A stretch of DNA of 56,810 bases, taken from an uncultured Clostridia bacterium (GTDB taxonomy: Bacteria; Bacillota; Clostridia; Christensenellales; CAG-314). This document shows, in pieces, positions 33,826-42,209 of the stretch (positions within the stretch are counted from its first letter, which is position 1; the number at the start of each line of letters is the position of its first letter). The notes beneath the pieces are model-generated. The model had not been told where the DNA came from and searched no databases. It worked only from the letters and a program-made list of their open reading frames with translations. The DNA is taken from contig CANQNJ010000001.1 in NCBI GenBank assembly GCA_947625185.1, positions 72,771 through 129,580 of the forward strand. Direction: 5' to 3'. Both the position numbers and the translations under genes were made by a program.

Positions 33826-34278
33826 ATGAACAAATGGGACAGAAGATTTATGGAGCTTACCGAACAGGTGGCTACCTGGTCAAGTTGCTACAAAGAGGAC
33901 CGTCAGGTAGGCGCAGTCATAGTGCGCGACAAGCGCGTTTTATGCACAGGATATAACGGCGCGCCCGAGGGCATCATGAGTTGCAAGGAGAAGGGCGAGT
34001 GTCTGCGCATCAAGCTCGGCATAGCCAGCGGGCACAATCTGGAAAAATGCTATTCCGTACACGCCGAGCAAAACGCCATTGTCAATGCTGCGCGTATGGG
34101 GACGTGCCTTGACGGCGCCACGCTGTACTGCACGCATCAACCCTGCGTTATCTGCGCCAAGCTGATAGTCAACGCGGGCATCAAGCGCGTGGTGTACAAG
34201 GACGGATATCCCGACGAGTTCGCAATGGAACTGTTGAACGAGGCTGGGATACAAGTAGACCGTTATTCGGACCTGTAA
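33826..34278 (+). CDS. Deoxycytidylate (dCMP) deaminase, ComEB-type
   Basis: The 150-residue zinc enzyme deaminates dCMP to dUMP for thymidylate synthesis. The zinc-binding and catalytic motif is VHAEQNAIVNAA, and the second zinc motif is QPCVICAKL. WDRRFMELTEQVATWSSCYKEDRQVGAVIV and GYNGAPEG are typical of the family. The last 30 codons and 110 bp downstream are duplicated at 36835-37040, marking the edge of an inserted element. The gene as it stands is intact. Confidence 0.93.
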   Translation: MNKWDRRFMELTEQVATWSSCYKEDRQVGAVIVRDKRVLCTGYNGAPEGIMSCKEKGECLRIKLGIASGHNLEKCYSVHAEQNAIVNAARMGTCLDGATLYCTHQPCVICAKLIVNAGIKRVVYKDGYPDEFAMELLNEAGIQVDRYSDL

Positions 34279-34390
34279 CAGCAGCAAACTTCACCGTATC
34301 GACAAAACCGCCGTTCGCACAGAGCGGCGGAAGTGTTTATTTGTGTTATTTATTAACGTCGGCTTCGTAATCGTTGCCGACGTTTTTTTT
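34184..34390 (+). repeat. 207-bp direct repeat, left copy (deaminase 3' end plus terminator)
   Basis: It starts AGCGCG in the deaminase gene and runs through the stop codon and terminator. The right copy is 36835-37040, offset 2651 bp, with about seven differences, three of them synonymous in the coding part. Confidence 0.95.
34355..34390 (+). terminator. Terminator of dCMP deaminase gene
   Basis: AACGTCGGC pairs with GCCGACGTT and is followed by eight T. Confidence 0.9.
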
Positions 34391-36444: not shown

Positions 36445-36929
36445 GTGACGTGATAAACAATGAAATCTATGACAAACTGACTCCTCAAAGAAAACAACTT
36501 GTCGATGCCGTTTTGAAAAATCTCGAAAAGCAACATGGACTTTGGCAACAAGGTTGGGTTTACATCGGTACGCCCGTATCGGCTGTCACGGGGAAAAAGT
36601 ATCACGGAATAAACAACTTTTTTCTGACGATTGCGGCGATGTCAAACGGCTATTCCGATAATCGTTGGGCAACGTTCAATCAAATCAAGGACAAAGGTTG
36701 GGAGTTCAAAACCGATGCGGAGGGAAATTCTCTCGGTAAAGGCGCAGGCGTCGCTATTGAGTTCTTTGAACTTCGTGACAGGGAAACACGGCAACCTTTT
36801 GACAGGCGCGTTTTAGACGGCATGAGTGCGGACGAGCGCGAGGTGTACAAGGACGGATATCCCGACGAGTTCGCTATGGAACTGTTGAATGAGGCCGGGA
36901 TACAAGTAGACCGTTATTCGGACCTGTAA
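36441..36929 (+). pseudogene. ArdC-like N-terminal domain fused in frame to a dCMP deaminase tail
   Basis: Residues 1-133 match the N-terminal single-strand-DNA-binding domain of ArdC-like antirestriction/replication proteins of plasmids and integrative elements: HGLWQQGWVYIGTPVSAVTGKKYHGINNFFLTI, then NRWATFNQIKDKGWEF and AGVAIEFFELRD. From residue 135 the sequence is that of the deaminase C-terminus (VYKDGYPDEF to YSDL), shared with the gene at 33826. The join is in frame at a GCGCG microhomology. The catalytic part of ArdC is absent. Start is TTG with GGAGGAGGTGAGG upstream. It is a recombination product and probably non-functional as ArdC. Confidence 0.8.
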
Positions 36930-37040
36930 CAGCAGCAAATTTCTCACCGTATCGACAAAACCGTCGTTCGCACAGAGCGGCGGAAGTGTTTATTTGTGTT
37001 ATTTGTTAACGTCGGCTTCGTAATCGTTGCCGACGTTTTT
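36835..37040 (+). repeat. 207-bp direct repeat, right copy
   Basis: It repeats the end of the deaminase gene, its stop codon and its terminator. Differences from the left copy include two extra bases (AAATTTCTCACC versus AAACTTCACC) and three synonymous codon changes. Confidence 0.95.
37008..37040 (+). terminator. Duplicate of the deaminase terminator
   Basis: AACGTCGGC/GCCGACGTT stem with a six-T run, now ending the ArdC-like chimera. Confidence 0.88.
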
Positions 37041-37065
37041 TCGGCTCTATTTCAAATATTGGAGA

Positions 37066-37304: not shown

Positions 37305-37333
37305 TTGACAATTTTTACAAACTGTTATACAAT
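37305..37333 (+). promoter_or_regulatory. Promoter of the structured leader upstream of the BspA-like gene
   Basis: TTGACA and TACAAT are separated by 17 bp. Expected transcription starts about 37340, at the first bases of the long hairpin. Confidence 0.8.
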
Positions 37334-37337
37334 GAAA

Positions 37338-37440
37338 TTACCACATTATTTTCTATAATTTTGGCATAACATCGCATACTCTCATGGTAGAGTTATGCGT
37401 CCTTCATCTTTGATGTTATGTCAAGAAAATAGTGTGGTAA
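37338..37440 (+). ncRNA. Candidate structured RNA: three nested stems
   Basis: The outer stem pairs 37338-37354 with 37424-37440 (17 bp, one G-U). The middle stem pairs 37361-37373 with 37412-37424 (13 bp, one G-U). The inner hairpin lies at 37374-37398 with a single bulge. The structure starts where transcription from the upstream promoter should start, and a terminator follows at 37461. It could be a small RNA or the sensor part of an attenuator. I do not recognise a known class. Confidence 0.6.
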
Positions 37441-37460
37441 CTATCGAGGCGCATATTCTA

Positions 37461-37493
37461 CAAGTGTCGCAGCGATAGTTGCGGCACTTTTTT
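37461..37493 (+). terminator. Terminator between leader RNA and BspA-like gene
   Basis: AAGTGTCGCA pairs with TGCGGCACTT (one wobble), followed by six T, 25 bp before the ATG. AACTATCG (37439-37446) can pair with CGATAGTT (37473-37480) in the terminator loop, a possible antiterminator. Confidence 0.82.
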
Positions 37494-37517
37494 GATGTAA
37501 TGCAAAGGAGGTACTAT

Positions 37518-39953
37518 ATGAAAACAAAACGCAATGTATTGGTGCTGTTGGCAATATTGCTTATTGCGTCTCTTGTCGTGGCGGTATTTGTTGCGTGCGA
37601 CAACGGCGACAAACCCCAGCCCGGCACGTCGCACACACATACATTTTCGGAGCAGTGGACGCATAACGATACGTATCATTGGCACGCAGCCAACTGCGGT
37701 GATACGGATGAAGTCAAGGATAAGGGGGAACACATTATCGGCTCCGATGGCAAATGTACTGTCTGTGACTATGAAGTGACCGCTCCCGAACCCGATCCGG
37801 ATCCCAATCCCGAACCTGAGACACCGCACACCCACACTTTTGGGGAGCAGTGGATATGTAACGATACGCATCATTGGCATGCAGCTACCTGCGGGGATAC
37901 GGACGAAGTCAAGGATAAGGGAGAACACATTTTCGGCGATAATGGCAAATGCTCTGTATGTGGGTGCGTGTCATTCAGCTCGGAGGGCGTAATATACAAA
38001 CTCAATCCCGATGAGCAAAGCTATTGCGTATTCGATGGCAGCAATGCGTTTTCGCCCAATGTAATAATTTTGTCTGAGTATGACGGCAAACCCGTCACGA
38101 GCATACGCGATCGCGCTTTCTACGATTGCAACAGCTTGACGTTCATTACCATACCGAGTAGCGTTACGAGCATCGGCTCGTATGCTTTCTCCGGTTGTAG
38201 CAGCTTGCAAAATGTAATATTTGAGGGCGACAGTCAATTACAGAGCATAGACGATTATGCTTTCAGTCATTGCGGCTTGACGTTCATTAAAATTCCGAGC
38301 AACGTCACAAGCATAGGTGCTCAGGCTTTATATGATTGCTGCAATATGACGTCCATCATAATTCCAAGTAGCGTCACAAGAATAGGCTTGGGGACTTTCG
38401 CTGGTTGTAGCAGATTGCAGAGCATAGTCGCAGAGCAAGGTAACCCTGTGTATCATAGTGATGGCAATTGTATCATTGAGACAGCCTCCAAGACCTTGAT
38501 TGCCGGGTGTAAGACTTCGGTAATTCCCACTGACGGCAGCGTCACAAGCATCGGCTCAGGTGCTTTCGACGGTTGCAGTGGTTTGACGTCCGTCACCATA
38601 CCGAGCAGTGTTACAGACATTGGCTATGGGACCTTCTCGTGGTGCAGTAACTTGCAGAGCTTGGTCGTGGAGCGAGGTAACTATGTGTATCATAGCGATG
38701 GCAATTGTATCATAAAGACAGGCTACAAAACATTGATTGCAGGGTGCAAGAACTCCGTAATTCCCACTGACGGCAGCGTTACAAGTATCGGCTCGTATGC
38801 TTTCTGGGGTTGCAGTGGTTTGACGTCCGTCACCATACCAAGCAGTGTCACAAGCATAGGCGATGGGGCTTTCGATGGTTGTACAAGCTTGCAAAGTGTT
38901 ATATTCGATGGCGACAGCCAATTGCAGAGCATAGGGGACTGCGCTTTCGGGTATTGCAATAGCCTGACATCATTCACAATTCCAAACCTTGTCACAAGCA
39001 TAGGCGATGCGGCTTTCTCGTATTGCAGTAACTTGCAGAGCATGGTCGTAGAGCAAGGTAACTCTGTGTATCATAGTGAGGATAATTGTATAATTGAGAC
39101 AAGTTCCAAGACCCTGATTGCAGGGTGCAAAACTTCAATAATTCCTACTGACGGTAGCGTCACAAGCATAGGATCGTATGCTTTCTACGGTTGCAACAGC
39201 TTGACGTCAATCACCATTCCAAGCTGTATTACAAATATAGTCGATATGGCTTTCTTATGTTGCAACAATTTGATAGAGGTGTGGAATTACTCCAAATTAT
39301 CCATTGTAGCGGGAGAGAGCGCCTTTGGCCGCGTTGGCTACTACGCGAAATACGTGTACACGGAAGATACCGAAAGTAAACAAATTACAGATCAAGACGG
39401 ATATGTATTTTTCCTGTACGAGGGTAATATGTATTTGATTTCGTATCGCGGCAATGAAACGCGATTGGTATTGCCTGAAAAAAGCCCCACCGAGACTGAC
39501 TATGAAATATATCAATATGCGTTTTACACCAATAAGAAGATAATCTCTGTCACCATTCCAAGCAGTGTCACAAGCATCGGTTCTTGGGCTTTTTCATGGT
39601 GCAGCAGCTTGCAAAGCATTATATTCGAGGGTGACAGCCAATTGCAAAGCATAGGCTATAATGCTTTCTATGAATGCATCAGCTTGACATCCATTACCAT
39701 ACCGAGTAGCGTCACAAGTATAGGCTCTGGGGCTTTCTATAATTGCGATAGTTTGATGTCTATCACTATACCGAGCAGTGTCACGAGCATAGGCTCGTAT
39801 GCTTTCTGGGATTGTAGCAATTTAACGAGTGTAACATTTGAAAATCCCACCGGCTGGAATGCAGACGGTATAAGCATTACTTTTGATGACCCAACGCGTA
39901 ATGCCAAATATTTGACGTTCATCTATTCAATTTCCGGGTTGATTCGAGAGTAA
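37518..39953 (+). CDS. BspA-like leucine-rich-repeat lipoprotein
   Basis: The 811-residue surface protein has a signal peptide with the lipobox FVAC (cysteine 27). Two near-identical His/Cys-rich modules follow (about 39-85 and 101-147), each with HTHTF, W, ND.(Y/H)HWHA, CGDTDEVKDKGEH and KC.VC, separated by a DPDPNPEPE linker. From about residue 185 to 790 there are BspA-type (LRR_5) repeats of the form LTSITIPSSVTSIGSYAFSGC, interrupted near 575-670 by a different segment. Such proteins mediate adhesion in gut and oral bacteria. AAAGGAGGT precedes the ATG at 37518. A promoter, structured leader and terminator precede the gene. Confidence 0.9.
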   Translation: MKTKRNVLVLLAILLIASLVVAVFVACDNGDKPQPGTSHTHTFSEQWTHNDTYHWHAANCGDTDEVKDKGEHIIGSDGKCTVCDYEVTAPEPDPDPNPEPETPHTHTFGEQWICNDTHHWHAATCGDTDEVKDKGEHIFGDNGKCSVCGCVSFSSEGVIYKLNPDEQSYCVFDGSNAFSPNVIILSEYDGKPVTSIRDRAFYDCNSLTFITIPSSVTSIGSYAFSGCSSLQNVIFEGDSQLQSIDDYAFSHCGLTFIKIPSNVTSIGAQALYDCCNMTSIIIPSSVTRIGLGTFAGCSRLQSIVAEQGNPVYHSDGNCIIETASKTLIAGCKTSVIPTDGSVTSIGSGAFDGCSGLTSVTIPSSVTDIGYGTFSWCSNLQSLVVERGNYVYHSDGNCIIKTGYKTLIAGCKNSVIPTDGSVTSIGSYAFWGCSGLTSVTIPSSVTSIGDGAFDGCTSLQSVIFDGDSQLQSIGDCAFGYCNSLTSFTIPNLVTSIGDAAFSYCSNLQSMVVEQGNSVYHSEDNCIIETSSKTLIAGCKTSIIPTDGSVTSIGSYAFYGCNSLTSITIPSCITNIVDMAFLCCNNLIEVWNYSKLSIVAGESAFGRVGYYAKYVYTEDTESKQITDQDGYVFFLYEGNMYLISYRGNETRLVLPEKSPTETDYEIYQYAFYTNKKIISVTIPSSVTSIGSWAFSWCSSLQSIIFEGDSQLQSIGYNAFYECISLTSITIPSSVTSIGSGAFYNCDSLMSITIPSSVTSIGSYAFWDCSNLTSVTFENPTGWNADGISITFDDPTRNAKYLTFIYSISGLIRE

Positions 39954-41326: not shown

Positions 41327-41369
41327 AAATTGTGTCCGTGCGACACAATGCGACGGTAAGGTAGGCAAT

Positions 41370-42209
41370 ATGCTTGATTTTCTGAAAAATATTGTGAATG
41401 AAGGCACAACGGTTCTCGTATCGAGGATAATTTTTGTGTTGGCGCTTACATTCGTATTTTATTTGTTCTTCTATTACGCAAAGAAACGCAACTTGCAGTT
41501 ATACACCTACATAGTGGTGGGCGTCATTGTGGTACTGTTTGCATTGACATTCCTGATCGGTGCGGGAGAATTGCGTATTTATGTCTACGTTGCTTTGATA
41601 CTGTTATCGGTTCTCGGATTGATGTTGTTCATATCCGATATCAACCGGCACATATTTCGTTTGTCCCTCAAACGAAAGTTCTTCCGTGAGAATCTTGCCG
41701 ATCACTACGGCAGCGAGGATCTGTCCAAGTCGGTTGGAGAGATTGTCAAGTCTTGCTTGCGCCTTTCCAAGACGGATACGGGAGCGCTGATCGTCATCGC
41801 CGATCATATGTCCGACGAGATACTCGACTCCGGTATCAAGATCAATTCCGAAATCACGGCAGAACTTATCGAGACGCTGTTCTTCCCCAAGACGCCGTTG
41901 CACGACGGCGCCGTGATAATAACGGCAAACAGGGTGGCAAGCGCGGGTTGTTATTTGCCGCTTACGCAAGCGCAGAATCTTCCGCGGGAGTTCGGCACTC
42001 GTCATCGCGCGGCGATAGGCGTGGCTGCAGCGTTTCCCGATTGCACGGCAATAGTCGTCAGCGAAGAAACGGGCATTATTTCCGCAATGCACGACGGCAA
42101 GATCAAGCGCTATCTCGATAGCCGTCAACTGCAAGATATCCTCGACTGCGCAATGGGATTGGCGGACGAGAGCGCCGAAGAAAGACTTTGGGGAGAGAAA
42201 GAACAATGA
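41370..42209 (+). CDS. cdaA: Diadenylate cyclase CdaA
   Basis: The 279-residue membrane enzyme makes cyclic di-AMP from two ATP. Three hydrophobic segments (about 17-35, 43-62, 68-90) precede the DAC domain with the catalytic DGA motif in KTPLHDGAVIIT and the RHR motif in GTRHRAAIGVA. AAGGT precedes the ATG at 41370. In most Bacillota cdaA is followed by cdaR (YbbR domains) and glmM. Here the next gene is a 42-codon membrane microprotein overlapping by 4 bp, and no YbbR domain is visible. Confidence 0.96.
   Translation: MLDFLKNIVNEGTTVLVSRIIFVLALTFVFYLFFYYAKKRNLQLYTYIVVGVIVVLFALTFLIGAGELRIYVYVALILLSVLGLMLFISDINRHIFRLSLKRKFFRENLADHYGSEDLSKSVGEIVKSCLRLSKTDTGALIVIADHMSDEILDSGIKINSEITAELIETLFFPKTPLHDGAVIITANRVASAGCYLPLTQAQNLPREFGTRHRAAIGVAAAFPDCTAIVVSEETGIISAMHDGKIKRYLDSRQLQDILDCAMGLADESAEERLWGEKEQ

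Follow-up and report, generated by a model that had tools for sequence, protein, structure and literature searches.

A large, unnamed family of leader RNAs, most likely riboswitch-like transcription attenuators, upstream of mainly surface-protein genes in uncultured gut Clostridia

Surface proteins are known targets of the c-di-GMP-I riboswitch elsewhere. Like that riboswitch (RF01051), the RNA family described here occurs in several copies per genome in front of diverse genes, and some genomes hold both; it differs in that no member tested has an Rfam match. Nine genomes in which no GGDEF domain was detected carry the RNA, in up to 10 copies, and c-di-GMP is unlikely as a general ligand because several RNA-rich genomes are among those without a detected GGDEF domain. 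Transcriptional riboswitches built on a terminator/antiterminator platform, such as the Na+ riboswitches (PMC9337991), share with the present family a 5′ leader position, a covarying receptor fold, a competing antiterminator and terminator, tandem copies and the presence of several copies per genome. However, the stems, pseudoknots and conserved bases of the family fit no Rfam class, and its linker is contested between the 3′ strand of an apical hairpin (P3) and the terminator loop. T-box leaders also share the terminator/antiterminator arrangement, and the sequence GTGTGGTAAC is superficially T-box-like, but GTGTGGT is locked in the basal stem (P1) and the downstream genes are not amino-acid genes; no T-box covariance-model match was found at the gathering threshold or at E <= 5–10.

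More generally, no Rfam 15 family was found at the element at its gathering threshold in any member tested, and loose E-values gave only sub-threshold chance matches there, none of them convincing; the other Rfam matches were true tRNA and tmRNA neighbours. One member (L013) scored 29 bits over the full model of rli51 (RF01490), a Listeria leader, with E 0.15. This is below the gathering score of 48, the other members have no match, and the match of L013 is likely due to chance. A search of open-licence papers turned up no description of the RNA family, an absence which is not proof of novelty.

The element was found in a 56,810-nucleotide stretch of DNA from an uncultured Clostridia bacterium, referred to here as the window. 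Three helices, P1, P2 and P3, are nested within 37338–37440 and are followed by a linker and then a terminator. Two alternative pairings, PK1 and PK2, involve the linker. The features are as follows.

37305–37333, plus strand: sigma-70-type promoter, TTGACA-17-TACAAT, 11 of 12 consensus matches; transcription start expected near 37340
37338–37354, plus strand: P1 5′ arm, 17 bp; 97.8% of cells paired (alignment columns 5–16)
37354–37361, plus strand: asymmetric A/U-rich joint between P1 and P2, TATAATTT, its last base being the first of P2
37361–37373, plus strand: P2 5′ arm, TTGGCATAACATC, 13 bp with one G-U
37374–37398, plus strand: P3 apical hairpin, 9 bp with one bulge and a loop around GGTAGA; shows covariation
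37386–37401, plus strand: PK1 strand, GGTAGAGTTATGCGTC, the P3 3′ strand; pairs with 37448–37461 as an alternative to P3
37412–37424, plus strand: P2 3′ arm, GATGTTATGTCAA, partner of 37361–37373
37424–37440, plus strand: P1 3′ arm, pairs with 37338–37354; one G-U is the sole departure
37437–37446, plus strand: PK2 5′ strand, GTAACTATCG, the antiterminator half; overlaps the end of P1; cognate-specific, z -20
37448–37461, plus strand: PK1 linker strand, GGCGCATATTCTAC, second part of the linker
37462–37489, plus strand: intrinsic terminator hairpin, 12 bp, -18.5 kcal/mol; U-run to 37493
37473–37482, plus strand: PK2 3′ strand, CGATAGTTGC, terminator loop and part of the terminator 3′ arm
37504–37512, plus strand: ribosome-binding site, AAAGGAGGT
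37518–39953, plus strand: gene presumed to be controlled, encoding an 811-aa lipoprotein with BspA-type leucine-rich repeats (Pfam LRR_5, E 2.7e-117)

An earlier note on this DNA had described a strong promoter, three nested stems with G-U pairs as the only mismatches in the two long ones, a rho-independent terminator before the ATG and an antiterminator pairing between AACTATCG (37439–37446) and CGATAGTT (37473–37480). The consensus scan bears out the promoter, similar -35 and -10 boxes lie upstream of most relatives, and P1 and P2 have one G-U pair each. The terminator ends 24 nt before the ATG at 37518, and the antiterminator helix extends to 10 bp and covaries across the family in cognate tests (below). 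The window RNA folds at -68 kcal/mol against -42.4 +/- 4.2 in dinucleotide-preserving shuffles (z -6.2), which is far beyond chance.

Two diverged paralogues, absent from the earlier note, are present in the same genome: one on contig 31 (73% identical), preceding another lipoprotein gene, and one on contig 35 (68%), preceding a gene for a zinc-ribbon/Flg_new-repeat protein. Matches by blastn occurred in 15 of 41 related genomes, every one within the genus, and the records with close copies are assemblies labelled ‘uncultured Clostridia bacterium’ from rabbit gut. When 26 copies were aligned, 23 of 41 pairs showed double compensatory changes; this alignment gave a first covariance model, which found matches in 19 of 25 genomes of the genus, with up to 10 copies, and in 40 of 297 genomes of the order. 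A second model, built from 77 members, was run on 391 genomes from 223 genera of the class and placed the family in 90 of these genomes and 53 of the genera, with at least about 310 copies when no more than seven candidates per genome were scored. The same model found no member in 398 other genomes sampled across the phylum. Elements also stand in tandem, two or three before one gene and often of different subtypes, at nine loci; tandem copies occur in several riboswitch classes.

In an alignment of 102 members, double changes occur at every one of the 41 model pairs; 94.4% of cells are paired, compared with 65.0% in shuffles and 37–46% when the arms are slid, and the covariation score is 0.756 compared with 0.216. 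In this alignment, double changes affect 12 of 12 pairs in P1 (columns 5–16), each position of P2 shows 4–6 pair types with 95.5% of cells paired, and the terminator is 97.2% paired, again with covariation. The family consensus of P1 is near UGCNACA...UGU-GCA with a kept U/C-G position, followed by A-R-C-A-A, and joints like UUAAUAUU lie between P1 and P2 in relatives. The covariance-model search suggested by the earlier note has thus yielded homologous structures in abundance across the class. As in riboswitches, a receptor fold (P1–P2–P3) upstream of an expression platform covaries, here across a class in which the family occurs in 53 genera.

The linker behind P1 has two partners. PK2 is the antiterminator, while PK1, a 14-nt pairing that the earlier note did not contain, has in the window a duplex energy of -17.2 kcal/mol against -9.2 kcal/mol for P3. 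In simulated folding of the nascent chain, the antiterminator is the minimum-energy structure for ends 37478–37486, and the terminator takes over once the chain reaches 37490. Because the pairing register varies, both pairings were assessed by an alignment-free cognate test, in which the duplex energy of an element's own strands is compared with that of strands swapped between elements. Among 137 non-redundant elements, own strands of PK2 gave -11.6 kcal/mol against -7.25 for swapped strands (z -20), and those of PK1 gave -13.7 against -9.2 kcal/mol (z -21); reversed-strand controls reached z -3.1 to -4.8 for PK2 and -0.6 to -1.5 for PK1. With one element per genome the values were z -17.8 (PK2) and -17.5 (PK1), and with ten elements whose linkers are <55% identical they were -5.7 and -5.5, matched in 0 of 3000 permutations. 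The support for PK1 comes from this test, since its column-wise covariation is slight (in the best register 71% of cells pair where 67% are expected), the pairing being largely conserved or shifting register. The nascent antiterminator folded in 98% of cases with own linkers and in 80% with swapped ones, the latter figure being high because linker motifs are common to the family.

In 58% of elements of the genus and 81% of others, PK1 and PK2 have 2 nt or more of linker in common, and they overlap or lie within a few nt of each other in about 95% of elements; the linker cannot easily serve both at once. In diverged members the same linker bases serve both, for example CAAUCGGAGC with the terminator loop, and GGAGC..UGCAUUUUU with GGUAAAAAUGCAUGCUC. 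As PK1 and the 10-bp PK2 stand one base apart in the window and share no bases, we infer rather than observe their strict exclusion there.

The position of the elements is that of leader RNAs, just upstream of co-directional genes, and they combine a conserved intrinsic terminator with a conserved competing antiterminator. A co-directional start codon lies within 150 nt downstream in 140 of 206 elements, mostly at 15–35 nt. By a crude gene caller, an opposite-strand gene comes first in 31 elements and no gene follows in five; in a few of these cases a start codon nevertheless adjoins the U-run. BspA-type leucine-rich repeats occur in 39 of 146 downstream proteins, with zinc-ribbon (16), Flg_new-repeat (11), Cu_amine_oxidN1-domain (9) and YpsA/SLOG proteins (6 at the threshold used, more by eye) among the others. 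N-terminal hydrophobic segments are found in 54–72% of downstream proteins compared with 30% of neighbouring genes, and the regulated genes point to no single pathway. LRR_5 proteins are abundant in RNA-rich genomes outside the genus and few in RNA-poor members of the class, a co-occurrence confounded by shared ancestry because genomes of the genus that lack the RNA also abound in LRR proteins.

In the 811-aa lipoprotein of the window a Cys/His-rich N-terminal region precedes the LRR_5 repeats. Here (window 37600–37980) the motif HTHTF..W..YHWHAA.CG...C..C is repeated; it is common to many other downstream lipoproteins and is possibly metal-binding. At five loci SLOG genes (YpsA-like, CFIGHR/CFGHK) have their start codon almost directly after the U-run, and the terminator 3′ arm may therefore also hide the ribosome-binding site. 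Five copies lie near tmRNA or tRNA genes, one of them (L078, 1501–1661) directly after tmRNA.

We place the element in a large unnamed class of RNAs that attenuate transcription in cis and are most likely riboswitches, and put the probability of this at roughly 0.55. There is about an even chance that it represents an undescribed riboswitch class, a sensor of a small molecule or ion that governs the repertoire of surface adhesins in uncultured gut Clostridia, namely BspA-type LRR proteins, lipoproteins, SLOG-domain and zinc-ribbon proteins. In that case the linker would choose between a strand-exchange pseudoknot with P3 and the antiterminator, and the class would be among the most copy-rich in its lineage. 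Each relative can probably fold either to stop or to allow the reading of its gene. P1, P2 and P3 would form the receptor domain, and the linker would either pair with the P3 3′ strand (PK1), which would push out the P3 5′ arm, or pair with the loop and inner stem of the terminator (PK2). If binding of, say, a small molecule or ion kept PK1 and the receptor in place, the linker would be occupied, the terminator would complete and the surface-protein gene would be off; otherwise PK2 would form while the terminator loop emerges from the polymerase, and transcription would continue into the gene. The structure with its covariation, the cognate specificity and linker overlap or close adjacency of PK1 and PK2, and the placement before start codons are observed; the switching itself, its on/off direction and a small-molecule effector are what we infer.

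The same layout could respond to a protein or other macromolecule binding the long P1–P2–P3 hairpin or a repeated loop motif, a reading we hold to be a good deal less probable. Long near-perfect stems and a diverse regulon would fit a regulatory protein, as would P3 and terminator loops that are alike within the genus (GGTAGA / CGGTAGA), but the competition between pseudoknots is a property of the RNA itself and the loop motifs differ between lineages (GGTAGA, GGTAAAAA, GGCATA). It is unlikely that the RNA is mainly a free trans-acting small RNA which ends at its own terminator, with downstream genes read by leakage: start codons cluster 15–35 nt past the terminator in most copies, and covariation maintains an antiterminator for which a free RNA would have no need. 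In favour of such an RNA, the element has its own promoter and a strong terminator, and there are copies that point at a convergent gene or come after tmRNA or tRNA genes. Where the copies lie with respect to genes speaks for a cis-acting leader, with some copies lacking an obvious target gene. The earlier note had proposed a riboswitch, a protein-dependent attenuator or a small RNA of no known class, and the covarying homologues and antiterminator together with the absence of an Rfam match support that proposal.

Very improbable is a processive antitermination RNA, EAR- or put-like, that modifies the polymerase to pass its own and later terminators. Such RNAs are likewise structured leaders of about this size that precede genes for exported proteins and have a terminator directly after them, yet a simpler antiterminator pairing exists and covaries, and neither EAR nor any other Rfam family is matched. 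The earlier note would have given up its reading for a MITE with the same ends, and a MITE copied around the genome would account for long inverted repeats in several copies per genome. This explanation is hardly credible, as the copies are 68–85% identical with compensatory changes in every helix, their flanks do not align beyond the element, and their spacing to start codons is fixed. One diverged member used as a query had no match in phage and plasmid records, and two exact patterns had none in viral contigs, results which show only that close copies are absent there.

Although at least about 310 copies were detected among the 391 genomes sampled from one class, with several in a single genome, Rfam 15 does not contain the family; it most likely works like a transcriptional riboswitch or attenuator, and in the strict, ligand-binding sense it is a predicted riboswitch. 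Since the family probably controls mostly exported proteins, including BspA-like adhesins, its effector would reveal a signal by which many uncultured gut Clostridia adjust their surface. Exact compensatory mutations follow from the model and the two competing pairings, and the class-wide gene list offers a basis for guessing the ligand.

Elsewhere in the window, a DAC-domain protein (c-di-AMP cyclase, CdaA-like) is encoded at 41367–42206, ~4 kb downstream of the RNA. Unlike c-di-GMP, c-di-AMP may be a candidate ligand, but such proteins are near-universal in this phylum. On the other side of the RNA, a direct repeat of ~207 nt (95–98% identical), in which a dCMP-deaminase gene has its 3′ end, occurs at 34184–34388 and 36835–37041. 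The 2.65 kb between the repeats encode an NrS-1 polymerase-like fragment, a DUF234 ATPase and an ArdC N-terminal domain, the last fused in frame to the deaminase tail, and the whole resembles an insertion or what is left of one.
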